In this document: positions 1-12,105 of the stretch, in pieces
How positions within the stretch are numbered: position 1 is the first letter of the stretch
Layout: the number at the start of each line of letters is the position of its first letter
Position numbers and translations under genes: made by a program
Notes under the pieces: generated by a model
The model's database searches: none
What the model saw: the letters and a program-made list of their open reading frames with translations, nothing else
What the model was told of the DNA's origin: nothing
Source of the DNA: Desulfocapsa sp.
Lineage (GTDB): Bacteria > Desulfobacterota > Desulfobulbia > Desulfobulbales > Desulfocapsaceae
Assembly: GCA_029935135.1 (NCBI GenBank)
Contig: JAOZKX010000026.1
Location: 1-12,337 of the forward strand
Length of the DNA: 12,337 bases
Direction of reading: 5' to 3'

Positions 1-651
1 GAGGATACCGTCCAGTCGTTGTCTGATCTTCAGGGAATTCTGATAGGGTTCAATGTGAATATCGGAGGCGTTGTCCCGTACTGCCTGGGAAAACATAAGG
101 TTGACCAGTTTAATAACTGGAGAATCACTGGTGTCATCGAGTAAATCACCCGTATCTTCAATTTCTGAAAAAAGTGCCTCCGGATCGTCCTCATCAATAT
201 CATGCATCACCTCTTCGGCCGTATTCTGGGTCATGTCGTAGGCGAAGTTGATGGCTGAAATAATAGAATTTTGCGGGTAGAGCACGGGGCGGGCGTCATC
301 CCATCCGAGAATGCGGCGGAGGTTGTCCAGGGGTTGAAAATTGAAGGGGTCGTTAATGGCAATATAGATGTCGTCGCGAAGGGCAATCGGCATCATAAGA
401 TGTTTTTTGAGAAAACCGATGGGAACATCTGCGGTAAAATCAGCAAGAATCTCAGAGGGAAGAGAGATAGAATGCTCCATATTCAGAACTTCACCCAGTT
501 TTTCTAACAGGTCAATTTCATCAACCGCTTCCTGGCGTACAAGAATACGGAGCAGATTTCCCCCTTTGTCCTGTTGTGCAGCAAGGGCTTTGTGCAGGAC
601 ATCTTCCGGGATACCAAGTTTTTCAATAAAAAAGTTTTCTGACGGTTGCAT
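1..651 (-). CDS. gspE: T2SS assembly ATPase GspE, N-terminal part (partial)
   Basis: This is the start of the cytoplasmic hexameric ATPase that powers pseudopilus assembly. Only the first 217 codons are inside the window, and the frame stays open to base 1. Residues 1-120 resemble the GspE/MshE N-terminal domain that docks on GspL. An acidic linker follows (about 150-173). Residues 175-217 match the start of the second N-terminal (N2) domain, including DSPVIKLVNLMF and the signature ASDIHIEP at 195-202. The Walker A, Walker B and tetracysteine zinc motifs would lie outside the window. ATG at 651 is preceded by AAGGGA about 4 bases upstream. The gene lies 74 bp after the gspD stop, a looser join than most others here. 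That gap shows no convincing promoter or terminator. PilB-type ATPases share this domain layout, but the position directly after gspD makes GspE the better call. Confidence 0.93.
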   Translation of the reverse strand, partial: MQPSENFFIEKLGIPEDVLHKALAAQQDKGGNLLRILVRQEAVDEIDLLEKLGEVLNMEHSISLPSEILADFTADVPIGFLKKHLMMPIALRDDIYIAINDPFNFQPLDNLRRILGWDDARPVLYPQNSIISAINFAYDMTQNTAEEVMHDIDEDDPEALFSEIEDTGDLLDDTSDSPVIKLVNLMFSQAVRDNASDIHIEPYQNSLKIRQRLDGIL

Positions 652-725: not shown

Positions 726-3032
726 CTATTCAGTGTCTTCAATATAGGGCCATGTGTCCTGTTTCAGGAGAAGTCGATCAATATTTTTCCGGCACAGGAT
801 AAGTATGTTTGATTCTGCGGGGCCAACTCCTTTGGTCTCCCCGTTTTTACTCTCTACTCCATTTGCTATAACCTGCTGGTAGTATTTGATGGCCTCCTCA
901 GGATTTCCTTCCCGTTCGCAGATAGTCCCCATATTCATCAGGGCGTATGGTGAGTTCGGGTTGATTTCCAGGGCTTCGGAGAAATAGTCCTTCGCTTCAT
1001 CATATTCCTCAAGCTGGAGTTTCTGAAATCCCATATCGGCAAGCGCCATGGAGTGACCTAGATTGATCTGTTTGTGCAGTTGCTCTTTGACTCTGGGCAT
1101 AACCGCATCGAGCTGGTCTTCTTTGGTCAGAGTTACCCGGGCCATATCGGCAGGATTTTTGATAATATGCGGGGTGATAAAGATAAACATATTTGTTTTC
1201 AGGTGGTTGGTGCTGTTTGTTTTAAATAACCAGCCCACAAGGGGGAGGTCGCCCAGCAGTGGGACTTTCCATTCACCCTCAGTGGCATCATGGCCAATAA
1301 TTCCCCCAATGACGATGGTCTCCCCATCCTGGACGAGTACGGTCGTTTCTGCTGTTCGTTTGTAGGTGGTAGGTGTTGTCCCTCCTACCCCCAGTGACTT
1401 GACCTTGCTGACCTCGGTCGTTATTTCCAGACGCAGGGTGTCGGCCTGATTGATTTGTGGGGTGATGGAGAGTTTCGTGGCCACATCCTTGTATTTGTAG
1501 CTTTCGTAACCTCGTTCTGAAGTATCTGCCGTATTGGCTGTATCCAGATAGGGTATGTTTTCACCCACGCTGATTTCAGCTTTTTTATTGTCGGTGGTCA
1601 GAATCTGCGGAGTGGCTATGATATTGATACTGGAGTCACTCTTATGGGCCTTAAGGACGGCACCAATACTGGGAAAGGTTATGCCTCCAATCTCAATCCC
1701 TTTTTTTAGTACACCCAGAGTAAATCCACTGCCAACTGCAGCATCTGCTATGTCCAAGGATGTGCCTACGGCATCAGTGGCGGCAAAACCCTTCTCTCCG
1801 CCCCATCCTGAAAGGACTGCCCCGGTATCATCTGAAAAGAGACCGCCGCCAATCCATTTGACGCCAACTTCAAAAGAAGCATCTGTGTCCACCTCCATAA
1901 TCAGGGCTTCCAGGTAAACCATCCGCCTTGGGATATCCAGTTTTTTGATCACATTGTTTAGTACCTTAAATTCTGTCCTGGAGGCGGTGATGATAAGGGA
2001 GTTTGTCTCTTCATCCGGCATGATCTTGACACTGGTGGAAATGGAAGGAGCTTTCTTAGGGCCCTTGCCACCTGCTGCCTGCTGTTGTCCGGGAAGGCTG
2101 GTGAGGACGGCAGCCAGCTCTTTTGCCCGGGCATGCTGCAGATAGACCACCTGAATGTTCCCCTCATCCTGTTCGGATTCCGTATCCAGCATGGCAATAA
2201 GACGTTTTACGCGGAGAATATCGCCTGGTCCGGCAAGCAGGATCAGGGCATTGATACGATCATAGGGGACGACTTTTATTCCCGTAGAGATAATAGCGCC
2301 TTTTTTTGGGGCGGCAGATCGCTGGAAAATAGTATTGATGGTGCTGGCCATGGTGCTGGCGGTAGCATTCTGCAGGGGGATGACTTCCAGTTCGTCACTG
2401 GAATAATCCACATCAAGGGACTCGATGATGGAGAGGAGTTTTTGAATGTTAGACAGTGTATCTGTCACAATCAGCATTCCTGACTGGGTATGGGCTATAA
2501 CCACTGAGGTCTTTGATACCAGAGGGGCGAGCACCTTTTTCATTTCGCCAGGGGTTGTGTGGACAAGGGGAATCAACTGGGTGACTATCTTGTCCTCCGG
2601 ACGGGAGCTTTTTCCGTGGAAAAGGGTTTCTATATTTTCGGTTCGGGCCCGAACGGAGGGCATAATTTTGATCATTGCCCCTGCCGGAATGGTGGTAAAG
2701 CCATTTACAGAGAGGACAGATTCAAAGACATGATATGCTTCTGTCTCCGATATTTTGGTGGGAGAGATAATGGAAACATTTCCCTTTACGGTTTTATCGA
2801 TAATGAAGTTTTTTCCAGTCAGCTCACTGATGTATTTGATAAAGAGGCGGATATCCACATTGTCAAAATCAATGGTGATAAAGCGTTGGGCTTTTTCTTT
2901 ATTCTGTGCTGCAGGTTGTTTTTTTGCACTAAAGGCCTGCGTAGAGGGAATGATCAGCAGGAGAGTGCAGAAAAAAAGCAGAAGAAAGGATCTGGAATTC
3001 TCAGATACAGTTTTCAGGTGAAGGGCGTTCAT
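726..3032 (-). CDS. gspD: T2SS secretin GspD with C-terminal TPR extension
   Basis: GspD forms the outer-membrane channel through which folded substrates leave the periplasm. The 768-residue precursor starts with a signal peptide (hydrophobic core about 16-30, likely cut near TQA at 31-33). N0 spans about 50-125, and the N1-N3 ring domains lie at about 150-208, 215-284 and 293-367. N3 carries a Gly/Lys-rich insert near 315-328. The secretin beta-barrel core runs from about 370 to 627. It includes the hallmark VPLLGDLPLVGWLF at 590-603 and ends with a MFIFITPHII-type strand. After the core, where many secretins have a pilotin-binding S domain, there are two TPR-like helix pairs (about 662-695 and 696-729) and a charged tail. 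ATG overlaps the gspC stop by 4 bp (ATGA), with AGGA 9 bases upstream. No lipobox is seen; the Cys at 22 lies inside the hydrophobic core. Confidence 0.97.
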   Translation of the reverse strand: MNALHLKTVSENSRSFLLLFFCTLLLIIPSTQAFSAKKQPAAQNKEKAQRFITIDFDNVDIRLFIKYISELTGKNFIIDKTVKGNVSIISPTKISETEAYHVFESVLSVNGFTTIPAGAMIKIMPSVRARTENIETLFHGKSSRPEDKIVTQLIPLVHTTPGEMKKVLAPLVSKTSVVIAHTQSGMLIVTDTLSNIQKLLSIIESLDVDYSSDELEVIPLQNATASTMASTINTIFQRSAAPKKGAIISTGIKVVPYDRINALILLAGPGDILRVKRLIAMLDTESEQDEGNIQVVYLQHARAKELAAVLTSLPGQQQAAGGKGPKKAPSISTSVKIMPDEETNSLIITASRTEFKVLNNVIKKLDIPRRMVYLEALIMEVDTDASFEVGVKWIGGGLFSDDTGAVLSGWGGEKGFAATDAVGTSLDIADAAVGSGFTLGVLKKGIEIGGITFPSIGAVLKAHKSDSSINIIATPQILTTDNKKAEISVGENIPYLDTANTADTSERGYESYKYKDVATKLSITPQINQADTLRLEITTEVSKVKSLGVGGTTPTTYKRTAETTVLVQDGETIVIGGIIGHDATEGEWKVPLLGDLPLVGWLFKTNSTNHLKTNMFIFITPHIIKNPADMARVTLTKEDQLDAVMPRVKEQLHKQINLGHSMALADMGFQKLQLEEYDEAKDYFSEALEINPNSPYALMNMGTICEREGNPEEAIKYYQQVIANGVESKNGETKGVGPAESNILILCRKNIDRLLLKQDTWPYIEDTE

Positions 3033-3733
3033 TTGTCGTTTTCCTGTTTTTTAGGTCTTTTAAAAGTCATTTTTCTGGAACTGGATTTTCTGGAAATGGG
3101 TGGGGTTTTCTTGGCTTCCAGTTCATCTTCAGGGATATTGATATGTTTTGCCATAAGATCCGCAAGTGTGGCAGCCTCATTTTTCCCTCCCCCTTTTGTC
3201 TTGATGGACTTTGGCTCCAGCATCAGCAGCACTTCATCTTTTCCATCAATGGTGAGAATAACCTTTCCCCGTTCCACCTGTTTGATAAGGGCAGGGCCGA
3301 TGGCGTCTCCATTATAGTAAATATCCTGGCTTTTCGCCTTCTTATCCAGGATGATAGCACGCTGTGTGTCACCTTCGCCACTGATGGTGCCAAGGAGGAT
3401 CAGGTCAAGAGTTGTTGTGTTCAGCACCGGTTCTGCTTTCGGGGCTTGTTTTGCCTCTTTTTTTGGTGTGCCGAAGAGCTCTCGTTTAACGATGAGTGAA
3501 TAGTCCCTGCCACTCTTCTGTACCTGTTTACTGGTTTTTTTAGTCACAGCAGGGGCGGCTTTCTTTGTTTTTTCTGCTGCTGCCGGTTTTTCATCTTCTG
3601 TCACCACAGTCTGTTCTATTTCCTCTGTTGCCTGCAGCTTTTCCGCAACTGTCCGGTAGAGCAATTCAACGCTGCCAACAGCGAGGAGTGTCGCCAGAAT
3701 AAAAGAAAAAATGATGGAAAAACGACTTGTCAT
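3029..3733 (-). CDS. gspC: T2SS inner-membrane linker GspC, without PDZ domain
   Basis: GspC connects the inner-membrane platform to the N0 domain of the GspD secretin. The 234-residue protein has a short cytoplasmic N-terminus and one membrane helix (about 7-27). An Ala/Lys/Glu-rich periplasmic linker follows (about 33-75). The homology-region (HR) domain lies at about 80-174, beginning with the RELFG motif and containing the strand pattern LDLILLGTISG and RAIILD typical of the family. It ends in a strongly basic tail (about 205-234) and not in the PDZ or coiled-coil domain found in many GspC proteins. The start codon lies 10 bp after the gspN stop, with no strong Shine-Dalgarno sequence, so it may depend on coupling. 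The stop overlaps the gspD start. Identity rests on the HR domain and the position directly before gspD. Confidence 0.9.
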   Translation of the reverse strand: MTSRFSIIFSFILATLLAVGSVELLYRTVAEKLQATEEIEQTVVTEDEKPAAAEKTKKAAPAVTKKTSKQVQKSGRDYSLIVKRELFGTPKKEAKQAPKAEPVLNTTTLDLILLGTISGEGDTQRAIILDKKAKSQDIYYNGDAIGPALIKQVERGKVILTIDGKDEVLLMLEPKSIKTKGGGKNEAATLADLMAKHINIPEDELEAKKTPPISRKSSSRKMTFKRPKKQENDK

Positions 3734-3743
3734 ATGTTTCGTG

Positions 3744-4634
3744 TCAGGAGTCGAAGTGAAATTTTGGTTTCTGTACTGTCCCTTCTAAAAGGAAGGGAAG
3801 ACTACTGCGTTTACCCTGTTTTTTCAGCTGAATAATCATATTCTGTGCATATTTACTCTTCTTCAGCAGGGGAGCTAAGGGCTCCATCTTCCCTCTAAAT
3901 GAAAAGGTGGACTGGGGAAGGGCCGGGAGCATTCCCACACTACCGGAAAAACTTCCGGTCAGTTCTTTACCGTTAAAGGTTCCGTTGGTAAATTTTAACT
4001 CGTTTTTTTGCAGGACAAAGTCAGATTCCATTTTTTGCAGATCAATTTTTTTCAATGATAAGATCGGTTCAAGAAGCTGAAAGTCCCCTTTTTCAATTGT
4101 AATATTCCCCTTACCGGTGGCCTGGTATTGGGTATCTTTCCATTCGCCTTGATAGCTGCCGTTTATCTGGCAATAGCCGCTGATTTTTCGATTCATAATC
4201 TGATGCAGGAAAGGGGCTTTGGCAAGATTGAAATTTTCAATCTGAATGTTTTCAAGACTGAATTTTGTCTTTTTCGCATCTCGCAGCAGAGTAAGGGAAT
4301 GCTGCCCTTCCGCACTGTCTATCTCAACAAGAAAGCGGGTTGTCAGGGCAACGGGAGTTGATTTGATTTTTGCCTGATCGATGAAAAAAAGCTCTCTGGC
4401 CTCTTCTCCAGCAGATTGGAAACGAATCTCCTTGGCCGTCAGTCCCAGAGGAAAGCTGTAGCTCAGCTCTTTTATGGAGCAACTGGTGTCGGGCAGCAGT
4501 CCTTCCAGAGAGGATTCACAGTAGTCTTTGAAAGATTCTGTTGGAAACCGGTAGTAGAGAAGAGCTGCAGTTAATGATCCTGTGTAGAACAGGAGTGTAA
4601 AGAGGAGGACAATCTTATTTCTCAGGAGTGTCAT
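3744..4634 (-). CDS. gspN: T2SS accessory protein GspN (AsmA-like)
   Basis: This 296-residue protein fits the GspN type described from Leptospira and deltaproteobacteria. It has one N-terminal membrane helix (about 7-27) and then a long, beta-rich periplasmic region resembling AsmA/DUF-type repeats. Patterns such as SYSFPLGLTAKEIRF (about 59-73), KGNITIEKGDFQL (about 175-187) and a final LLEGTVQKPKF element (282-292) are typical of this fold. Its exact role in secretion is not settled. The position between gspM and gspC matches its usual place. ATG shares one base with the gspM stop (TAATG) and has GGGAG about 9 bases upstream. Three Cys residues (39, 52, 155) lie in the periplasmic part. Naming relies on fold pattern, size and position more than on a sharp motif. 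Confidence 0.82.
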   Translation of the reverse strand: MTLLRNKIVLLFTLLFYTGSLTAALLYYRFPTESFKDYCESSLEGLLPDTSCSIKELSYSFPLGLTAKEIRFQSAGEEARELFFIDQAKIKSTPVALTTRFLVEIDSAEGQHSLTLLRDAKKTKFSLENIQIENFNLAKAPFLHQIMNRKISGYCQINGSYQGEWKDTQYQATGKGNITIEKGDFQLLEPILSLKKIDLQKMESDFVLQKNELKFTNGTFNGKELTGSFSGSVGMLPALPQSTFSFRGKMEPLAPLLKKSKYAQNMIIQLKKQGKRSSLPFLLEGTVQKPKFHFDS

Positions 4635-5218
4635 TACGCGTCTCTCCCTATGAAGGTGATGACCTGGATAACAGCATTGAGTGAGCCCTGTTTTTTTCCC
4701 TGCTCCTGAATGGATATCCGGTTGATAAAAACTGCTTTTTCTGTTGATTCAACACCTTTTAGAAAGGCAACGAGCTCTTTTAAGGTGAGATCCTGGAGTT
4801 TCATATCCACCCGTGACTCCAGGAGCAGGCCTTCCCCCTCCACCTTACTGGGTTTCATATACTTGATTTTCTGTTTTGTTTTTGCGGCAGTGGCCTGCTT
4901 TTCAATAAAAGAAAAGAGGGTAAAATTCTTTGCTCGTTTGGCGATCCGTTCCTGGATATCACCGGATTTTTGTTGCTGCAGTTGATACTCCTTTTGCAAT
5001 GTATGCATCTGCTGCAGTTCGGCCTCTTTTTTGAGCAGAGACTTTTGCAGCTTTTGTCTGGAGTTGAGGATGGGAGTAAAGACAAATTGAAAAAAGAGCA
5101 GGATAGAGACCGTGGCAGCAAGGCCGCTGACCATGATTTTTTCCCTTTTAGCCATCTGTTGCCAGCCAATTTTCCGAACAAGGGTCTGGGGCACTGCGGA
5201 GAGTTTTGATAGGTTCAT
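4634..5218 (-). CDS. gspM: T2SS inner-membrane protein GspM
   Basis: GspM partners GspL in the inner-membrane platform and stabilises it. The 194-residue protein has a cytoplasmic basic N-terminus (about 1-27), one membrane helix (about 28-50), a coiled-coil stretch rich in Gln, Lys and Leu (about 53-95), and a C-terminal ferredoxin-like domain (about 100-194) of beta-alpha-beta pattern. GspM is poorly conserved in sequence, so identification depends on this architecture and on lying directly after gspL. The start overlaps the gspL stop by four bases (ATGA) and has a good GGAGAGG ribosome-binding site 7 bases upstream. The length is near the usual size for the family. Confidence 0.9.
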   Translation of the reverse strand: MNLSKLSAVPQTLVRKIGWQQMAKREKIMVSGLAATVSILLFFQFVFTPILNSRQKLQKSLLKKEAELQQMHTLQKEYQLQQQKSGDIQERIAKRAKNFTLFSFIEKQATAAKTKQKIKYMKPSKVEGEGLLLESRVDMKLQDLTLKELVAFLKGVESTEKAVFINRISIQEQGKKQGSLNAVIQVITFIGRDA

Positions 5219-6729
5219 GGCAGTGCCTCTCCCGGACTGAGCTTCAGCTCAAAGCGGACCGTGTTGTCTTTTGGGTTCATGTTGGCAGAGCTGATGGTAA
5301 CATTGGTGAACAGTTGTGATTTTTCCAGCTCCTTTTTCATACTGTCCACTGTGTTAAAAGTATCTGTGATTCCCATCAGTCGCAGGCCATCGATTTCATA
5401 AATCATACGAGTCAAGCGGATCTCAATGGACTTTGGAATGCGACTGGAGAGTTCATGGAGAATATCAAGGGATGTGTATGGCAGCGTTACACCGCCACCG
5501 TCAGCAGAAGAAAACTGGGCATCTTTGACTGCAATTTGCAGCTGTTGTACCGGGTCTACAATACGTTTGCTGTCGGGAAGCGTTTCTCTGAAAACAGCAT
5601 GGATATCGGTGACCAGTTTAGCCCGTTGCTGTTTGAGATTACTGGTATCATAGACAAGGTAGCCCAAAAAAAGAAAAACCATTGCCAGCAGTGGAATAGA
5701 GATGATTTTTCCCAGTTGTAGGTAGTTTGAGAGGTCATTTTTGGAAGAAAATTCATCTTTGCTGAAATTAAAGCTTTCTTTGATATTTTTTTCCTGAAGA
5801 CCGAGGCTGAGACATGCGGTCAAAAAAGAAGCGTGCTTTTCTGTCTCTTCTGAGAGATCGGGGGGGAGCGGAAGCAAGCCTGCTCGGCCGCAGATCAGGC
5901 ACGGAGTATCAAAAGATGCATCGAGCCAGGTACTTGCCGATTCTGCATTTGCGACGCTGCCGTCAATATAGATGGGAATCTGTTCAGCAGCATGTAGAAG
6001 CGGGAGGGAGGCCAGGGTCTGTTTGACAGAGAGGGCAAGTTCACGAAAGGATTCTGCGCTGTGTTTGACGCCATGGGTTGTCAGGTGACCAGTCGTTTCA
6101 TCCTCGGTCAGGGCGATTGTCTGCTCACTGTCAAAGAGAAAGGGTTTAAAGATAAGCGGACGTACCAACTGCAGTCTGTCTGCAGAAAAGAGATAGAGTG
6201 CTGCTGTTTCCAGGCGGAGATCAAGAAAGATAAATTCTTCCGGTGGGTGACCATTCTTCTGGATCTCAGCAATGGTGGCAAGGCCTGAGAGTGCAATGGC
6301 TTCCGGGAAAATTTCCTTGTCGGTCAGGGCAGTGTAATATTCATCAAGGACTGCCCGCTCAATCATGGCAGCGATTACGGATGCCGTTCCGTTCTCCTCA
6401 CTGTTTATCATTGCATCGATGACAACATCTGCACTGGAGCTGATCATGTCATTTTCCAGTTCCAGAGGGAGTATTTTTTCGACGGCTTTCTTTTCAGAAA
6501 AGGGCAGTGTCAGATTTTGAAAGGAAAAAAAGGAGGCACCCAAAGAGATGATGCAGCGGCAATTAGCACAGTTCAGGGTGGTGACCATTTCTGTGATCAC
6601 CTCTTCTGCGCCCTTCCCGTTAACAATAATAGCGGCGGATGCAACAATCTCCCGGTTTTTGTCCTCGTCAAGGAGGACAGCCGTCAGCAGATCGGGTTGC
6701 AGATCTATGGAGAGGAGTTGTTGGGCCAT
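5215..6729 (-). CDS. gspL: T2SS inner-membrane platform protein GspL
   Basis: GspL recruits the GspE ATPase through its cytoplasmic domain and pairs with GspM in the membrane. The 504-residue protein has an actin-like (PilM/ASKHA-fold) cytoplasmic domain at about 1-310. It opens with LLSIDLQPDLLTAVLL and has a second beta-hairpin, FIFLDLRLETAALYLF (167-182). A charged linker follows, then one membrane helix (about 342-360), a short coiled coil (about 361-405) and a PilN-like ferredoxin periplasmic domain (about 415-504). The N-terminal beta strand right after the ATG supports this start. Oddly, there is no Shine-Dalgarno sequence: the leader is AU-rich (TTTATAAATATGTAA). The gene follows a 102-bp gap after gspK, the widest gap between gspG and the start of gspE, so its expression may be set separately. 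It is a full-length, intact gene. Confidence 0.93.
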   Translation of the reverse strand: MAQQLLSIDLQPDLLTAVLLDEDKNREIVASAAIIVNGKGAEEVITEMVTTLNCANCRCIISLGASFFSFQNLTLPFSEKKAVEKILPLELENDMISSSADVVIDAMINSEENGTASVIAAMIERAVLDEYYTALTDKEIFPEAIALSGLATIAEIQKNGHPPEEFIFLDLRLETAALYLFSADRLQLVRPLIFKPFLFDSEQTIALTEDETTGHLTTHGVKHSAESFRELALSVKQTLASLPLLHAAEQIPIYIDGSVANAESASTWLDASFDTPCLICGRAGLLPLPPDLSEETEKHASFLTACLSLGLQEKNIKESFNFSKDEFSSKNDLSNYLQLGKIISIPLLAMVFLFLGYLVYDTSNLKQQRAKLVTDIHAVFRETLPDSKRIVDPVQQLQIAVKDAQFSSADGGGVTLPYTSLDILHELSSRIPKSIEIRLTRMIYEIDGLRLMGITDTFNTVDSMKKELEKSQLFTNVTISSANMNPKDNTVRFELKLSPGEALP

Positions 6730-6763
6730 TTACATATTTATAAAGAAGGTAGCAGATACGGGT

Positions 6764-6789
6764 AAAAAAAGTCAAGCCATTGACTTGAC
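6764..6789 (-). terminator. Hairpin plus T-run between gspK and gspL
   Basis: On the minus strand GTCAAG and CTTGAC form a 6-bp stem with a 7-base loop, followed directly by seven T. An overlapping alternative pairs AAGTCAA with TTGACTT (7 bp, 4-base loop). This looks like a weak intrinsic terminator or attenuator about 40 bases after the gspK stop. The stem is short and AT-rich, so it may only reduce read-through into gspL-E. Confidence 0.35.
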
Positions 6790-6792
6790 ACT

Positions 6793-6821
6793 ACTATTCA
6801 CTATTGCCTGCCTGCTGTCAA
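6793..6821 (-). promoter_or_regulatory. Possible internal promoter before gspL
   Basis: On the minus strand TTGACA (6816-6821) is followed after 17 bases by AATAGT (6793-6798), giving a perfect -35 and a 4/6 match to the -10 box. A start site would fall near 6786, inside the upstream arm of the hairpin at 6764-6789. A transcript begun here would therefore lack most of the 6-bp stem and might escape the terminator. AATAGT occurs a second time 7 bases upstream. This is a sequence match only. Confidence 0.33.
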
Positions 6822-6831
6822 CTTGCAACTG

Positions 6832-7932
6832 TTAATCACTGTCCCAGCGCAGAGTATTTAGTTCTGTATCGGAGCGCTCCACTGTCGCCGTGATTGTTTT
6901 TTGTTGTTCTTCAAGGGTTGCCATTGCTTCAATGGTAAAGAAATTTGAAGAAGTTGTTATAAGATCTTGTTGTAATTCGATATCACCAGGAAATGAAGGA
7001 ACATTTTTATACCACTGACTATTTTCCAATAGGGCGCTGTTGTTTTCGTCCTCCCGGAATTCGACCATTACCTCAGCAGCTTCTTTGGTCATGGCCTCAT
7101 GCAGTGCCTGCAGCAGCAGGACATCTGCTGTGTTGATGTTGATTGTGCCGTTGTCACCCAGGGGAGTGAGAAGAGGTGCAAGGGCGGGGATATCTTCCGT
7201 ACCATAGAGAAGTTCTTCCGTTATTCCTTTTACCAAAAGGAGTTCCTCGATGGATTCAATGGGACCATTTTTACAGGAATAGGGAGGGTTCAAGGAGTGG
7301 TAATAGTTGTCTTCTGCTCCATATTCTTCTTCCCCGTCCCCGTCTTCACTGTCCAGCCAGTCGATAAGGGAGTCGATGATTCCCCTGGCCTTCCCATCTT
7401 CCAGGAGAAAAGGCTCTGCCCGCAGAAGGCGCCAGAGTATATTGCGGATGTCTTTCACCCGTTGCAGTGGATCTGCTGTTGCGGCTGGTGCTGCATTTGC
7501 TGCATTTGTTACCTTTGTTGTATTTGCCGTGTTTGCTGTATTGGCAGTGTTCGTTTGGGCATTGTTTTGCGATCCATCCGCAACAGGGATCATTGCATTG
7601 ACCTGGAACTTTCCTCCTTCGTCATATATGGAAACCTCTATTTCACCATATTCAAAAAGAGTGGAAAGGTCTTCTTCCCCTAAGAGAGCCCATGAATCCA
7701 GAGCCGAATCAAATATGTTTTCCTGCTGGTCTTCAATGAGGATCTCCCGGGCAATGGTGATCCCTGCTTCTGCCATAACCGCGAGTCTGGTGCTACTCCT
7801 GAGACTTGCGGAGACAATGTAATGGTCCCGCATTTCCTTGCTGAATTGCAGGGTTATGACGGCAAGCACACTGACCAGGCTGACAACCAGGAGCAGGGCC
7901 ATACCCTTGTTATTGTTGAGTGGTCTGCTCAT
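6832..7932 (-). CDS. gspK: T2SS minor pseudopilin GspK
   Basis: GspK is the large pseudopilin at the tip of the pseudopilus, in complex with GspI and GspJ. The 366-residue prepilin has a 10-residue leader ending NNNKG, cut by prepilin peptidase before MALLLVVSLVSV. Mature position 5 is Leu and not Glu, as is usual for GspK. Then come the first alpha-beta part (about 40-120), the inserted all-alpha domain (about 155-290) with helix-hairpin-helix-like segments such as GTININTADVLLLQAL (262-277), and closing beta strands (about 325-365). Acidic residues at 194-208 may bind metal. A low-complexity Asn-Thr-Ala insert sits at 123-151. ATG shares one base with the gspJ stop (TGATG), and there is no clear ribosome-binding site, so coupling to gspJ is likely. 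Confidence 0.95.
   Translation of the reverse strand: MSRPLNNNKGMALLLVVSLVSVLAVITLQFSKEMRDHYIVSASLRSSTRLAVMAEAGITIAREILIEDQQENIFDSALDSWALLGEEDLSTLFEYGEIEVSIYDEGGKFQVNAMIPVADGSQNNAQTNTANTANTANTTKVTNAANAAPAATADPLQRVKDIRNILWRLLRAEPFLLEDGKARGIIDSLIDWLDSEDGDGEEEYGAEDNYYHSLNPPYSCKNGPIESIEELLLVKGITEELLYGTEDIPALAPLLTPLGDNGTININTADVLLLQALHEAMTKEAAEVMVEFREDENNSALLENSQWYKNVPSFPGDIELQQDLITTSSNFFTIEAMATLEEQQKTITATVERSDTELNTLRWDSD
7489..7551 (-). repeat. 9-bp tandem repeat inside gspK (Asn-Thr-Ala units)
   Basis: Seven consecutive 9-bp units encode NTA, NTA, NTA, NTT, KVT, NAA and NAA (residues 128-148 of GspK). The units differ mainly at synonymous or single positions (for example AACACTGCC, AATACAGCA, AACACGGCA), so the array has diverged since it formed. 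It lies at the junction between the first pseudopilin lobe and the inserted alpha domain, and probably forms a flexible loop. Confidence 0.8.
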
Positions 7933-8612
7933 CAGTCTGTTTTTGCCGCTGGAAGAACTATGGCAGTTTGAAAAAGGATTCCCAGCTCATCATCGTTACC
8001 ATTGGCAAAGCGAAGGGTGAGGCGGATAAGTTTTGGAAGCAGCTCAGCGGCATCACCGTCCTCATCACCCGCCTCCTTATCCTCATCGCTATCGGCCCAT
8101 GTCTCTTTTTCTGTTCCTTCCCCGTCCTGATAGTCAAAGGCGACTTCGAGAAGTGTGTCACTAAGCAGGAGGGCGGATGTCTTCTCAGTTTTTTCTTCAT
8201 CGTCCTCGCCTGTTGTCACAGCTTGCTGTGAACGGTAGATAGACAGAGTCTTTGTTTCGGAATCTTCCTCGACTTGATAGCTGATAATGGAATGGCCGCT
8301 GTTTACCTGCCAGGGATGAAATTTGACACTGGCAGTGGATGTGAACTCCAGACTGTCTGCCCGGTGTCCATTGATGGTATCACTTGTTCCCGTAAAAAGT
8401 GATGTTTCTCCGGGGTAAAAGGATTCCAGGTCTTCCCGAATTCGTTCCATGGCTGTCTGGGCCTGACTGTAGATTTCAGATTGTGAAGTTGCTCCTCCTA
8501 TAATACGAAAACTTGCATTATAGGAGGAGTAGGCAAGGCCGATGACGATGGCAAAGATAGAGATTGCCATCAGGATTTCCAACAGGGTAAAGCCGTTATT
8601 GTTCGTCTTCAT
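7932..8612 (-). CDS. gspJ: T2SS minor pseudopilin GspJ
   Basis: GspJ is a tip-complex pseudopilin that contacts GspI and GspK. The 226-residue prepilin has a 7-residue leader (MKTNNNG) cut before FTLLEILMAISIF, with Glu at mature position 5 and a hydrophobic helix to about residue 30. The globular beta-rich domain follows. Residues about 160-185 form an acidic stretch rich in Asp and Glu, before a final strand region (LIRLTLRFANG). The start overlaps the 3' end of gspI by 17 bp and has AAGG about 6 bases upstream. GspJ and GspI are both class III prepilins; the longer size and the place between gspI and gspK decide for GspJ. Confidence 0.93.
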   Translation of the reverse strand: MKTNNNGFTLLEILMAISIFAIVIGLAYSSYNASFRIIGGATSQSEIYSQAQTAMERIREDLESFYPGETSLFTGTSDTINGHRADSLEFTSTASVKFHPWQVNSGHSIISYQVEEDSETKTLSIYRSQQAVTTGEDDEEKTEKTSALLLSDTLLEVAFDYQDGEGTEKETWADSDEDKEAGDEDGDAAELLPKLIRLTLRFANGNDDELGILFQTAIVLPAAKTD

Positions 8613-9003
8613 CCTGTACCTTCACATAGGTGTCGATCTGGTAGCTGTACAGCTCGTCTCCCCAATGTATTGTTACTGTCAGCTGCTGAAGTTTCCCCTC
8701 CAGTGGTTGCATAACTTCCGAGTCACCCAAAAAAGCCTCTTCAGTGCTGAGTTCCCAGGTGAATCCTGAAAAATCATCACCAAAGTCACCCATACCTGTC
8801 ATCGGTTCTTGTGCCGCCTGGAATTCAGCCAGTTTCATGCGTGCCAGCAGTGGTGCCTGAATGTTAAAGCGGGTTTCTGCAGCAAGGGAGACACTTGCAG
8901 ATTGGGAACCAAAAAGGGAGGTGAGGGCAATGGCCAGAATTGCCACGGCAACCATTACTTCAAGAAGGGTGAATCCCGCTGTTGTTCTTTGCTGTTCCTT
9001 CAT
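8596..9003 (-). CDS. gspI: T2SS minor pseudopilin GspI
   Basis: GspI is the small pseudopilin that nucleates the tip complex with GspJ and GspK. The 135-residue prepilin has a 10-residue leader (MKEQQRTTAG), is cut before FTLLEVMVAVAILAIAL, and has Glu at mature position 5. The sequence AETRFNIQAPLLARMKLAE (41-59) resembles the family's post-helix region, and a short globular beta domain ends the protein. Size is normal for GspI. The gene starts 3 bp after the gspH stop (TAG CCC ATG) in the same reading frame. It shows no Shine-Dalgarno sequence, so re-initiation after gspH is likely. Confidence 0.93.
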   Translation of the reverse strand: MKEQQRTTAGFTLLEVMVAVAILAIALTSLFGSQSASVSLAAETRFNIQAPLLARMKLAEFQAAQEPMTGMGDFGDDFSGFTWELSTEEAFLGDSEVMQPLEGKLQQLTVTIHWGDELYSYQIDTYVKVQDEDEQ

Positions 9004-9006
9004 GGG

Positions 9007-9513
9007 CTAGTGAAAACTCGAAGCTTGATCAAGGATTTTGATACGGTGCAGAAAGGGAGAGATCAGCAGGGTGATTGTGTCGTTTTTCCGGTCCACAAGT
9101 TGAATGCTTGTCTGGTCCATATAGCCCTGTTTGGAAATCCAGAGACCATCTTTTTCGGGACTATGCTCGTCGCTTGCATTTGCCTGTTCTACTCTCTGTA
9201 TCCGGATTCCTGCTGGCAGGCTAATCGCATTGCCGGAGGGGCCTGCTGACTGTTCATCTGTCTCGGCCGGCTGGTACCAGAGTTTTTGCTGTGCCGGATC
9301 AATGTGGATGATATACGGCGTGCGTTCCCGAATTGCTTTGCTGCGGCCAGACTGAATAAGGGAAATAACCTTCCTTGATCCGGCAGCAAGCTGGTCACTC
9401 ACTATGGAATGGCGCAGGGTGGGAATAGAAATGGCAAGACTAATGGAAACTAACAGCGCAACGATAAGCAGTTCCAGCAGGGTGAAGCCATGCTGGTCTG
9501 CTTGATAAGACAA
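9007..9513 (-). CDS. gspH: T2SS minor pseudopilin GspH (TTG start)
   Basis: GspH is a minor pseudopilin thought to join the tip complex to the GspG filament. The prepilin is cut at HG^FTLLELLIVALLVS, with Glu at mature position 5. A GspH-type beta-rich domain follows, including SGRSKAIRERTPYIIHID, the post-helix region typical of the family. No ATG exists in frame before the cleavage site. Two TTG codons are possible: 9528 (14-residue leader) and 9513 (9-residue leader MSYQADQHG). I chose 9513 because AGGA lies 7 bases upstream, while the 9528 codon has only GGGAG at 12 bases. The gspG stop (TAA) is in the same frame just upstream, so no longer start is possible. The C-terminus ends beside gspI. 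Confidence 0.9.
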   Translation of the reverse strand: MSYQADQHGFTLLELLIVALLVSISLAISIPTLRHSIVSDQLAAGSRKVISLIQSGRSKAIRERTPYIIHIDPAQQKLWYQPAETDEQSAGPSGNAISLPAGIRIQRVEQANASDEHSPEKDGLWISKQGYMDQTSIQLVDRKNDTITLLISPFLHRIKILDQASSFH

Positions 9514-9520
9514 GACTTGA

Positions 9521-9524
9521 TCCT
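9521..9524 (-). promoter_or_regulatory. Ribosome-binding site deciding the gspH start
   Basis: AGGA on the minus strand (within GCAGGAT) lies 7 bases before the TTG at 9513 and inside the codons that would follow the TTG at 9528. It favours the downstream TTG as the gspH start. Confidence 0.45.
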
Positions 9525-9531
9525 GCAAGGA

Positions 9532-9948
9532 TTATTCAGTCTCCCAGTTATTTATATCTGCATCTGCATCTTCCCCGCCCGATTCTCCATCAAGGCCATA
9601 GGATGTAATATCAAAATCAGAATGGCTGCCGGGGCTGAGATAGACATAGTCGTTGTCCCATGGGTCTGTCGGAACTTTTTTCATATAGCCGCCCTTACGC
9701 CATTTTTTTGCCAGTCTTCCTGAGGCGGGTGCAGTTACCAGGGCCTGCAAGCCCTGATCTGTAGTTGGGTAGGAGCCATTATCCAGTCTGTACATCTCCA
9801 GTGCCGTTCCAAGGGCGCTCATCTGTGATTCGGCCATGGTTCTTTTTGCCTCATCCGGACGGCCCATGATGCGTGGCCCAACATAGCCAGCAAGGATACC
9901 GATGATGACCAGAACAACAAGGAGTTCAATAAGGGTAAAGCCGGACAT
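9532..9948 (-). other. gspG: GspG major pseudopilin moiety of the fusion
   Basis: This 138-residue segment is a complete GspG by itself. MSG^FTLIELLVVLVIIGILAG is cut before Phe, with Glu at mature position 5. The family's conserved region with the YRLDNGSYP and TDQGLQAL motifs follows, then a PTDPW turn and an acidic C-terminal loop (DGESGGEDADADINNW) that resembles the calcium site. It could be made separately from the ATG at 9948, but no Shine-Dalgarno sequence precedes that codon: the upstream bases are a C7 run and GTACATGGT. Cleavage of the fused precursor by prepilin peptidase is the other route to a normal mature GspG. Confidence 0.92.
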
Positions 9949-12105
9949 ACCATGTACGGGGGGGCTACTATGGGCTTTGATTTTTTTCTTGCTGCTGTTT
10001 ATCAAAAACAGGAGCAGGATAAAGAGAGTGAGACCGGCCAGCTGCAGGGCCAGATAAGGATTCAGGCTCAGGTAGCTGAGTGTCGTTAATGGTGCCAGGA
10101 GGCAGCGGGTTGCTGCCTGCAGGAGTGGGCGCTCTGCTATGATTTGTGCCAGTGGTGGAGAAAACTGGTAATAGGTATCGATGAATTTTCTCCCCAGAAC
10201 AGAGGGCTTTAAGTAGGCGTCCCGGAACTGGCGGAGGATTTTGACCTGAGTCTTGTCCTGGCTGGTAAAGGCAGCAGTGGCAATGAAGCAGGCATCGTTG
10301 GTGGTGAATTGGAATTCGTTGCCATAGATAACGGAGTCATCGGAGAGTTTCCCGTAGGCTCTGGCATAGTAGGTTGTGCCAGCAATCATCTGGATAAGGT
10401 CAGTACGGAATTCACCCAGTCCATCTCCGTCTTTTGTACACCATTCTTTGACTGTGTCTGTTTTGAAAAGATCTGATATATCTTTTCCATCGTCGTCAGT
10501 ATCTGTAGTTGTGGTTGTAGTTGGCGTTTCTGGGGCTGAGTCAAAGCTGTCTTTCCAGGTGGCCCCTGGAGTAATGGCATAGCAGACACCCCGTTGGGTA
10601 ACGGTGGTTTCGGGGATATTGTTGTTGCGTATATATCCGCCACTGGCCGCACTGTTACGGGTAACATGTGTGGGGAGAGTGGTGGCGATATAGTATCCCC
10701 ATGTGTCGACACCATTGGAGGCCCGCAAAAATGATAGCTGGTCACTCGTAAAGCTGAGGAGGGCAAAGTCTGAATCTTTACCGTTCTCTGCTGTACCTGC
10801 TACCAGAATTTTCCCGTTCTTCAGGGCGATAAGGCTGTTGGCGACATCGTTGTACTGGTTGAAGTCTGTTAATGTGTAGTTTTTCAGGGGGGCTGTAGTG
10901 GTTATTTCGTCGCTGTAACTTTTTTCAATAACCAGAGCCTTGACAGTGATTGACTGGGATTTTTCTTCTTCACCAGCTGTTGCAGCTGGCAGACTGTTTG
11001 AAATTTCGTGACCATTTGCACTGTAATGGAGAAGAATGAAATCTGTATCTGAGCCTTTACTGCCTGATCCCGCAAGATAGATCGTGCTGTCTTCCGCCAT
11101 GGTCAGTGAGTTGGCAATCGTGTCATTGCCAAGATCCGTGAGAACGAAGCTGCCATTATTAAATGTCGGGTCAAGTGCTCCCGTTTCTGTGAATCCTGCC
11201 AGGAGAATAGAACGATAGGAAACGCCCTCAACTGCACCTGTGGCCACTACCTTCCCGTTGTCAACAGCGATAAGATCGTTGAAGAGGGAGTTTTGGTCCT
11301 CTGGGCCAGACAATACTACGCCGTTTTCTCCATAAGCACTATCAACTCGTCCATTGGCGAGAAAAGAAAAAAGTGCTGCCCGTACAACAGTGGATTCTTT
11401 TGTCGAGCCGGCCAGCAGGATATGACCGTTTTCCTGCAGGATTGCCCCGCGGGCTGTTGCCTCGTATCCCTCTGTTCCTGTGAGCATGCCGTGATCGGCA
11501 AAGGAAGTGTCTGGAGAACCATCACTGTGTAAGCGGGCAAGAAAAAGATCTTTTTCTGTGTTGAGGATGCGACTACCGGCAAGAATGATCTTTCCATCTT
11601 CCTGGATGAGTATGCTGTGGGCACTGTCGTCACTGTTTGCAATGGGGAGAGTGAGCTGGCCGTCGTCATCAAAATCCATATCCAGGATACCGTCACTGTG
11701 CAGGCGGATAATAGCGACATCTGTACTGCCATTATTCTCTGTTGTGCCCGCCACCAGAATTTTTCCATCTTTCTGAACGGCAATGGCAAGACCGGTATCA
11801 TTCCCGGAACCCACTGCAATAGTAACCTGTCCTGAATAGTTAAAGCCTGTATCAATCGTTCCGTCACTGTTGTAACGGGCAACGGCAATATCTGTGTCGG
11901 CGCCGTTTTCACTCTGACCTGCTATTATGATCTTACCGTCTGTCTGAACGGTGATGGCATAGGCTTTATCATCATAGATGGAAAAGTCGGTGGTCAGTTG
12001 TCCATTTTCTCCAAATTGTGGATCAAGATCTGCCTGAGCCGGGGAAAGGGCAGGAACAGATAAGCCGAAAAAAATAGTCAAACATATAAGTACAAAGCGT
12101 TTCAT
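9532..12105 (-). CDS. gspG: Delta-60 propeller / CFI-box protein fused to pseudopilin GspG
   Basis: One uninterrupted 857-codon ORF joins two proteins. In order: Sec signal peptide 1-25 (MKRFVLICLT..., cut after AQA); seven delta-60-type repeats, about 45-457, likely a seven-bladed beta-propeller; an Fn3-like domain, about 470-602, holding a Thr run, a DxDxDG loop (535-540) and TTYYARAY (577-584); a CFI-box domain opening CFIATAAF (606-613) with LRQFRDAYL and GRKFIDTYY; a membrane helix, about 682-703, with a KKKIK tail; then a full GspG prepilin at 720-857. GspG is the major pseudopilin of the T2SS filament. The function of the propeller part is unknown. ATG at 12105 is chosen because it opens a clean signal peptide and lies about 39 bases after the predicted transcript start. 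An in-frame TTG at 12141 would lie almost on that start site. The ribosome-binding site is weak (ACAGG, 9-base spacing). The fusion could be real or an assembly artefact at the C7 run. Confidence 0.85.
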   Translation of the reverse strand: MKRFVLICLTIFFGLSVPALSPAQADLDPQFGENGQLTTDFSIYDDKAYAITVQTDGKIIIAGQSENGADTDIAVARYNSDGTIDTGFNYSGQVTIAVGSGNDTGLAIAVQKDGKILVAGTTENNGSTDVAIIRLHSDGILDMDFDDDGQLTLPIANSDDSAHSILIQEDGKIILAGSRILNTEKDLFLARLHSDGSPDTSFADHGMLTGTEGYEATARGAILQENGHILLAGSTKESTVVRAALFSFLANGRVDSAYGENGVVLSGPEDQNSLFNDLIAVDNGKVVATGAVEGVSYRSILLAGFTETGALDPTFNNGSFVLTDLGNDTIANSLTMAEDSTIYLAGSGSKGSDTDFILLHYSANGHEISNSLPAATAGEEEKSQSITVKALVIEKSYSDEITTTAPLKNYTLTDFNQYNDVANSLIALKNGKILVAGTAENGKDSDFALLSFTSDQLSFLRASNGVDTWGYYIATTLPTHVTRNSAASGGYIRNNNIPETTVTQRGVCYAITPGATWKDSFDSAPETPTTTTTTDTDDDGKDISDLFKTDTVKEWCTKDGDGLGEFRTDLIQMIAGTTYYARAYGKLSDDSVIYGNEFQFTTNDACFIATAAFTSQDKTQVKILRQFRDAYLKPSVLGRKFIDTYYQFSPPLAQIIAERPLLQAATRCLLAPLTTLSYLSLNPYLALQLAGLTLFILLLFLINSSKKKIKAHSSPPVHGMSGFTLIELLVVLVIIGILAGYVGPRIMGRPDEAKRTMAESQMSALGTALEMYRLDNGSYPTTDQGLQALVTAPASGRLAKKWRKGGYMKKVPTDPWDNDYVYLSPGSHSDFDITSYGLDGESGGEDADADINNWETE
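9958..9964 (-). repeat. C7 homopolymer at the fusion junction
   Basis: Seven consecutive C (G on the plus strand) encode the Pro-Pro region between the CFI-box tail and the GspG start. One extra C would end the upstream protein at a TGA (9928-9926) 21-23 bases into gspG, leaving overlapping separate genes. One fewer C would put the upstream protein out of frame with gspG and extend it across much of that gene. Confidence 0.9.
9997..10290 (-). other. CFI-box domain and C-terminal membrane anchor
   Basis: The segment begins with CFIATAAF, then an LRQFRDAYL element, a GRKFIDTYYQFSPPLAQII element, a hydrophobic amphipathic stretch, and a membrane helix of about 22 residues before Lys-Lys-Lys-Ile-Lys. 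This matches what I know as the CFI-box-CTERM domain, which normally ends its proteins and is proposed to act in sorting or anchoring. Here it is followed by GspG. The positive tail predicts that it faces the cytoplasm. Confidence 0.75.
10735..11973 (-). repeat. Seven delta-60 (DUF5122-like) protein repeats
   Basis: Units start near residues 45, 102, 159, 214, 272, 327 and 418 of the fusion, at 55-58-residue spacing except for a 91-residue step before the last. Each has the pattern A-x-x-I-x-x-x-(D/N)-G-K-I-x-x-A-G followed by an (A/L)-R-x-x-x-(D/N)-G element. The set suits a seven-bladed propeller with an insert at about 369-410 between blades 6 and 7. At DNA level the repeats are diverged. 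Confidence 0.82.

Follow-up and report, generated by a model that had tools for sequence, protein, structure and literature searches.

Repeated in-frame fusion of an exported propeller protein gene to the major pseudopilin gene gspG in Desulfobulbales

How is the major pseudopilin of a type II secretion system (T2SS) supplied when no stop codon separates its gene from that of the exported membrane protein encoded just before it? The question is raised by a 12,337-nucleotide stretch of DNA from Desulfocapsa sp., here called the window, which is one entire contig (JAOZKX010000026.1 of assembly GCA_029935135.1; G000:C284 in our numbering) of a draft genome of 497 contigs that is 72.6% complete. 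NCBI assigns the genus Desulfocapsa to Desulfocapsaceae, in the order Desulfobulbales. On its reverse strand, a single open reading frame (ORF) runs from a secreted protein with delta-60 repeats and a CFI-box domain into a complete GspG. An earlier note on the window, made from its letters without database searches, proposed that the product is a polyprotein from which prepilin peptidase frees GspG. We find that the fusion is natural and repeated, and that the sole major pseudopilin found in the fused genomes carries a protein-sized leader. In our view GspG is probably synthesized as the C-terminal portion of a polyprotein and released when prepilin peptidase cuts after Gly722.

A complete GspG behind a protein-sized leader

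The frame begins with the ATG at 12105-12103 and ends with the stop codon at 9534-9532, and its 857 codons include no internal stop, as the earlier note had read. Its features are collected in Table 1. An NCBIfam search, made with an 856-residue version lacking the first Met (full numbering is one higher), found delta_60_rpt (TIGR02608) in seven stretches (E = 2.7e-65), CFI_box_CTERM (NF041770) at E = 5.7e-25 and 86.9 bits against a cut-off of 40, and GspG (TIGR01710) at 180.1 bits against a cut-off of 88.85, the last covering profile positions 1-134 of 134 at query residues 720-854. The three assignments of the earlier note are borne out by these matches; its “Fn3-like domain” had no Pfam match at E 0.1, and the structural model has only beta strands there, at about residues 554-601. 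The AlphaFold2 model of the whole protein has a mean predicted local distance difference test score (pLDDT) of 71.8 and a predicted template modeling score (pTM) of 0.52. Propeller strands with a pLDDT mostly >85 occupy residues 36-361, and the top Foldseek matches in the PDB are CylK structures, that is, a propeller similarity. The CFI-box region is modeled as helical and the GspG helix as starting at residue 725, with low confidence in the loop ahead of GspG, in the GspG head and in much of GspG. A model from another fused clade (P0121; pLDDT 67.8, pTM 0.51) has an identical domain order.

A C-terminal membrane segment with a basic tail at the protein end is a feature of CFI-box-CTERM proteins, and it is also seen in the split relatives described below. 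The fused protein has the membrane segment and the basic stretch after the CFI-box, and then GspG instead of a protein end. Residue 1 of the PulG structure 5wda aligns at query residue 722, which is Phe723 of the full protein, in agreement with the leader length given in the earlier note. A GFTLIE motif, with Gly at -1, an aromatic residue at +1 and Glu at +5, is present in the window and in all 41 fused sequences compared here. What stands ahead of the site is not a short N-terminal prepilin leader but 722 residues, although the last 20 of them make up a short, basic, leader-like stretch.

Recurrence, single copy and an open linker

The gapless fusion was read at the DNA level in 12 genomes, the window's and 11 others: four of its genus (G013, G006, G016, and G003), three of its family (G061, G062, and G065), and four of another family of the order (G045, G149, G150, and G153). 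In G045 the propeller neighbor is as elsewhere, with no CFI motif recognizable by the script pattern. Fused proteins were also found among the best 120 listed in each of two protein searches (P0002-P0019, P0033, which is a fragment, P0034, P0039, P0121-P0133, and P0148), some of them from those same genomes. The 41-sequence fused set consists of these 35 database proteins plus P0001, L101-L104, and L119, and so overlaps the 12 genomes; it contains near-duplicates (P0015/P0012, P0127/L119, P0133/L104, and L101-L103, ~90% alike) and one fragment, and it leaves out L097, L100, L117, and L118.

The fusion is a minority arrangement. Among 121 gspG loci of two families (the window plus L097-L216), 12 are fused and 66 are split, a stop codon separating gspG from a CFI-box/delta-60 gene immediately before it (62 recognized by script and 4 by eye). 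Another 42 show no such neighbor in the sequence examined (41 judged by script and 1 by motif; some, such as L143, L158, and L162, have little upstream sequence), and 1 is cut by a contig end. These counts rest on the GspG matches listed, weaker matches lying outside them. The earlier note held that homologous loci with gspG always separate would refute its reading; what we found was 12 fused loci versus 66 in which the neighbor ends in a stop. Fusion was called from sequence only, since the open-frame length given by the genome search ran across a stop in G020 and G055 and was therefore an unreliable sign. No fusion was seen in seven further loci of the two families (L239-L245): in L241 a stop separates the neighbor from gspG, in L239 and L243 gspG is separate and no neighbor was seen, the frame of L240 is open as far as the contig start, and L242, L244, and L245, with open frames of 156, 135, and 180 residues, were unrecognized by the script. 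Four split loci (L108, L111, L116, and L120) share the frame of the neighbor with a single stop between by script distances, and so stand one stop-loss away from fusion. In 5 of the 20 genomes of the window's genus group (G008, G009, G010, G011, and G014) there was no GspG match at 1e-25, and the T2SS seems to be absent or missed there (G008 is 85% and G014 76% complete).

Several independent gains of the fusion are likely from a tree of 85 rows built on propeller plus GspG, from which P0121-P0133 and P0148 were left out. The fused state needs six changes on this tree, at least four of them forced by branches with a support of >=95 in the Shimodaira-Hasegawa-like approximate likelihood ratio test. 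A single clade for all fused rows of the window's family plus P0034 and P0039 was rejected (p = 2e-31), and one for all 32 fused rows gave p = 0.034 with a log-likelihood 1363 lower; one fused clade within the window's genus group was not rejected (p = 0.51). The constrained groups were named after the tree was seen. No reversal of fusion is required. The seven listed unfused proteins at >=50% identity (P0020-P0026) form one clade with three split loci, and P0028 is a fragment beside a fused row. Outside the order, a search of the class listed same-order genomes only (257 genomes, a number equal to the order's), and in a phylum sample of 395 genomes the junction query had hits at 1e-42 in five, each belonging to that order, four fused and one with a stop; this query picks up only relatives of the present neighbor protein.

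In each of the 12 fused genomes a single GspG scores above the family cut-off, and it is the fused copy; weaker pilin-like matches lie below. A spare separate gspG was looked for as a candidate and none over the cut-off was found in any of the 12, some of which are incomplete: completeness ranges from 72.6% to 100%, and 8 of the 12 are >=90% complete and <=5% contaminated. Each also has one prepilin peptidase over its cut-off, and the two that were read (G065 and G006) carry GGGD and two CxxC motifs.

The linker between the two proteins changes fast and stays open. In the window's genus group, whose fused clade has 23 rows, parsimony counts at least 189 replacements and no stop over the 27 linker columns of that clade, against 5 replacements in the next 25 columns, which belong to GspG. 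About 11 nonsense changes would be expected in that clade without selection, given that the genetic code allows 392 missense and 23 nonsense single-base substitutions; the corresponding expectations in two smaller sets, 2.2 for f12 (4 rows) and 0.1 for g15 (3 rows), are too few to judge. The linker of G006 (L098, G006:C60:7495-7530) holds two copies of a 15-base repeat that occurs nine times in that genome (its reversed control, 0), once in the window's genome (G000), and nowhere in G013, G003, or G016; this linker looks like spacer DNA turned coding.

Proposed processing of the fused protein and its alternatives

The following route is proposed for the fused chain. Directed by the Sec signal peptide, the delta-60 propeller and the CFI-box domain would enter the periplasm; the membrane region would then return the chain to the cytoplasm at a short basic loop, and the GspG helix would cross outward. 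A cut after Gly722 by prepilin peptidase (PilD/GspO) on the cytoplasmic face would leave the propeller protein anchored in the inner membrane and would supply the pseudopilus with a normal GspG, presumably N-methylated. One review describes prepilin leaders as varying in length, ending in Gly or Ala and lying in the cytoplasm, and the peptidase as cutting the cytoplasmic leader near the membrane with other proteins unnecessary (PMC10191384). The cut after Gly722 is the most likely step, because such a chain would present the usual site.

The expected side of the membrane follows from charge. Across the 41 fused sequences, the last hydrophobic stretch lies 9-36 residues before Gly(-1) (median, 19), and the loop between has a net charge of +1 to +9 (median, +4), positive in every case. 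The tails of split neighbors after their last hydrophobic stretch are net positive in 62 of the 62 measured (median charge, +3; median length, 11). Hydropathy was scored with the Wimley-White octanol scale, and in one earlier analysis with that of Kyte and Doolittle. Because they are net positive, the loop and the split tails should by the positive-inside rule be cytoplasmic, and the fusion would therefore join two cytoplasmic ends. It could arise repeatedly because the basic tail of the one gene product and the basic leader of the other both face the cytoplasm, and joining them disturbs neither topology. The earlier note had the chain returned to the cytoplasm by a membrane helix; a hydrophobic region and basic loop are indeed there, but the region mostly consists of two stretches rather than one. 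Its broader proposal is supported: the fusion and the main families stand, and the comparison adds recurrence, single copy, the absence in many fused sequences of a start that gspG could use separately, and an open linker.

Several points weigh against this route. Cleavage is inferred from the sequence, as are the insertion topology, methylation and stability of both products. Two hydrophobic stretches precede the loop in most fused sequences; should both span the membrane, the loop would lie in the periplasm and could not be cut, an odd number of crossings being needed. In the AlphaFold2 models of both clades (the window and P0121), the helix break between the stretches is one residue long, which fits a kinked helix yet is no proof of a single crossing, and the second helix runs at its end into the basic loop. 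The stop count is a rough parsimony made on a short, gappy linker, in rows chosen for being fused.

Codons from which gspG might be initiated separately also count on that side. The window keeps an ATG at MSG, three codons before the site; G013 has one at leader position 21; G061 and G062 have one at leader 18, opening a leader-like MKNHAKR; and at leader 5 there is an ATG or GTG in G061, G062, and G065, preceded in two of them by AAGG. An ATG at leader 5-30 is present in 8 of the 12 fused loci, compared with 62 of 62 adjacent split loci and 34 of 41 neighborless ones. The absence of a Shine-Dalgarno sequence is weak evidence, since a match of at least 4 nucleotides (nt) precedes the ATG in just 19 of 62 split loci, and Shine-Dalgarno scoring was dropped for this reason as a test of separate initiation. 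Of the seven neighborless loci with no such ATG, six (L182, L183, L185, L188, L189, and L207) have a TTG at leader 20 with a 5-nt Shine-Dalgarno match, a likely start, and one (L140) has a TTG with none.

If gspG were also or mainly initiated inside the long ORF, at ATG 9948 in the window and at other internal starts elsewhere, no polyprotein cut would be needed. Yet G006 and G045 have no ATG, GTG, or TTG within 45 codons before GFTLIE, 23 of the 41 fused sequences have no Met at leader 5-30, and the closest ATG of this kind is within the hydrophobic stretch or at its border in G016, G003, G153, and G149. A crude scan found no promoter-like site at the window junction, and upstream stops, which should be tolerated if internal starts sufficed, do not occur in the fused clade. 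We consider internal initiation unlikely, and the polyprotein probable rather than assured, because plausible internal starts survive in some fused genomes. An open frame produced by an assembly or sequencing error, with the true genes separate, was a serious rival until relatives were read, because the junction of this draft genome of many contigs contains a C7 run and, upstream of it within the gene, an A7 run in the KKK codons. The other 11 genomes have an equal fusion with differing linkers and no C7 (G065 has an A7 of its own), the fusion is present across several assembly sources, including a genome in one contig of 2.77 Mb (G045), and the nearest relatives of the window on the tree, P0002/L098, are fused. 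Sequencing slip is ruled out as a general explanation by the fused relatives with other linkers, and for the window itself we find it scarcely credible. The C7 and A7 runs could permit slippage between fused and separate forms in the window strain.

GspG might instead stay uncut, working or being parked as a membrane-tethered propeller-pseudopilin. A working uncut fraction is compatible with the sequence evidence given here, but a pseudopilus piston is built from many subunits that must be free and have a free N-terminus, the sole GspG over the cut-off in all 12 fused genomes is the fused copy, which in the window lies inside a T2SS run, the cleavage motif is retained in 41 of 41 sequences, and the genes are separate in 66 relatives; we regard this as very improbable. 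A different doubt, compatible with the polyprotein, concerns its purpose: the fusion may be real and cut but functionless, having arisen by chance loss of a stop and persisting because undoing it would take a stop codon and a start codon arising together. The genes are adjacent in 66 split loci, the frame offsets of split neighbors (21, 11, and 30 of 62) reveal no in-frame excess, the 21 that share the frame being near one third, and both ends are basic and hence cytoplasmic by the positive-inside rule. Against this stand several origins and long persistence in two deep clades, although drift plus such a ratchet could still yield both, and we give mere persistence an even chance. More tentatively, and with the odds somewhat against it, prepilin peptidase would serve as a polyprotein-processing protease in several Desulfobulbales lineages, separating two full-size membrane proteins that selection maintains as one chain because the pseudopilus needs the CFI-box/delta-60 protein in stoichiometric amounts, as its scaffold, chaperone, or piston base, and not as a chance neighbor. 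A benefit from 1:1 supply and a role of the propeller in secretion are speculation.

The locus and its nearest counterparts

Table 1. Features of the window, with residue numbers of the full 857-residue protein
Feature	Position	Strand	Basis or remark
Single fused ORF	12105..9532	-	857 residues plus stop; first gene of a gspG-H-I-J-K-L-M-N-C-D-(E) run
Sec-type signal peptide, ~residues 1-25 (MKRFVLICLTIFFGLSVPALSPAQA)	12031..12105	-	Translation read by eye
Delta-60 repeats, beta-propeller, ~residues 36-452	10750..12000	-	TIGR02608, AlphaFold2, Foldseek
CFI-box-CTERM domain, residues 606-673	10087..10290	-	NF041770
Hydrophobic membrane region, helices 660-681 and 683-711, one-residue gap	9973..10128	-	AlphaFold2, hydropathy minima
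Basic, presumably cytoplasmic loop NSSKKKIKAHSSPPVHGMSG, residues 703-722, net charge +4	9940..9999	-	
C7 homopolymer within the loop	9964-9958	-	Possible sequencing or replication slip point
In-frame ATG nearest the junction	9946..9948	-	3-residue leader (MSG); no Shine-Dalgarno match by script
Predicted prepilin peptidase site Gly722^Phe723 (GGC/TTT)	9937..9942	-	GFTLIE motif, PulG alignment
Mature GspG, residues 723-857	9535..9939	-	TIGR01710, T2SSG PF08334
Remaining T2SS run: gspH-, I-, and J-like minor pseudopilins, gspK, L, M, N, C, and D	726..9528	-	
ORF start resembling gspE	1..651	-	Truncated by contig end; named by eye from sequence and position

The GspG of the fused ORF thus sits inside a T2SS gene run. 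Of the genes at 726..9528, only GspK, GspN, and GspD pass curated cut-offs; gspH, I, J, L, M, and C, with scores below the cut-off, were named by best match and gene order. GspD (726-3032, minus strand) continues for about 130 residues past its secretin match, and residues 637-724 match tetratricopeptide repeat (TPR) families, an added TPR tail.

If the polyprotein reading is true, prepilin peptidase accepts a membrane-crossing leader hundreds of residues long, which would constrain how it holds its substrates, and the main subunit of the secretion piston can come from polyprotein cutting. Gene order (78 of 121 loci are fused or adjacent) and repeated fusion link the CFI-box/delta-60 proteins, which are uncharacterized, to the T2SS. 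The fused genes offer natural substrates for testing the leader tolerance of the peptidase and polyprotein supply, and searches that rely on protein length or on an N-terminal leader could overlook GspG in genomes of this kind. No description of a GspG or prepilin polyprotein was found among the papers listed by the literature searches (12 of 38 in one listing, mostly on viruses), nor any paper for “CFI-box” or “delta-60 repeat,” and the available part of PMC4858521 yielded nothing on fused pilins.

The protein shares with GspG of other systems (PulG, EpsG) the GspG domain, GFTLIE, the preceding basic stretch, a place in a T2SS run, and a prepilin peptidase in the genome; it differs in that the site follows 722 residues belonging to an exported membrane protein and that there is no separate gene. 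Split relatives, unlike the fused protein, have an ATG giving a leader of 9-30 residues in 45 of 46 cases. The CFI-box/delta-60 proteins of relatives (NF041770, TIGR02608) are of the same kind and occupy the same place beside gspG in the 66 split loci, but they end after the basic tail, where the fused protein has no stop.

An unusually long N-terminal extension is also known from the mitochondrial GspG of heteroloboseans, where a marker is carried to the organelle by the 160 N-terminal residues of NgGspG1 and the detected peptides lie downstream of the processing site, which the authors take to indicate a similar maturation (PMC8134430). That extension is read as a eukaryotic targeting sequence and not a second protein, and the authors speculate on a peptidase unrelated to GspO (PMC8134430).

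FbcH of Bradyrhizobium japonicum is reportedly a precursor of cytochrome b and cytochrome c1 from which an internal signal-sequence cut releases both. FbcH too is a bacterial membrane protein fused to a second protein, both freed by an internal cut; it is said to be cut by the ordinary signal peptidase on the periplasmic side, whereas here prepilin peptidase would cut on the cytoplasmic side and would free a filament subunit.

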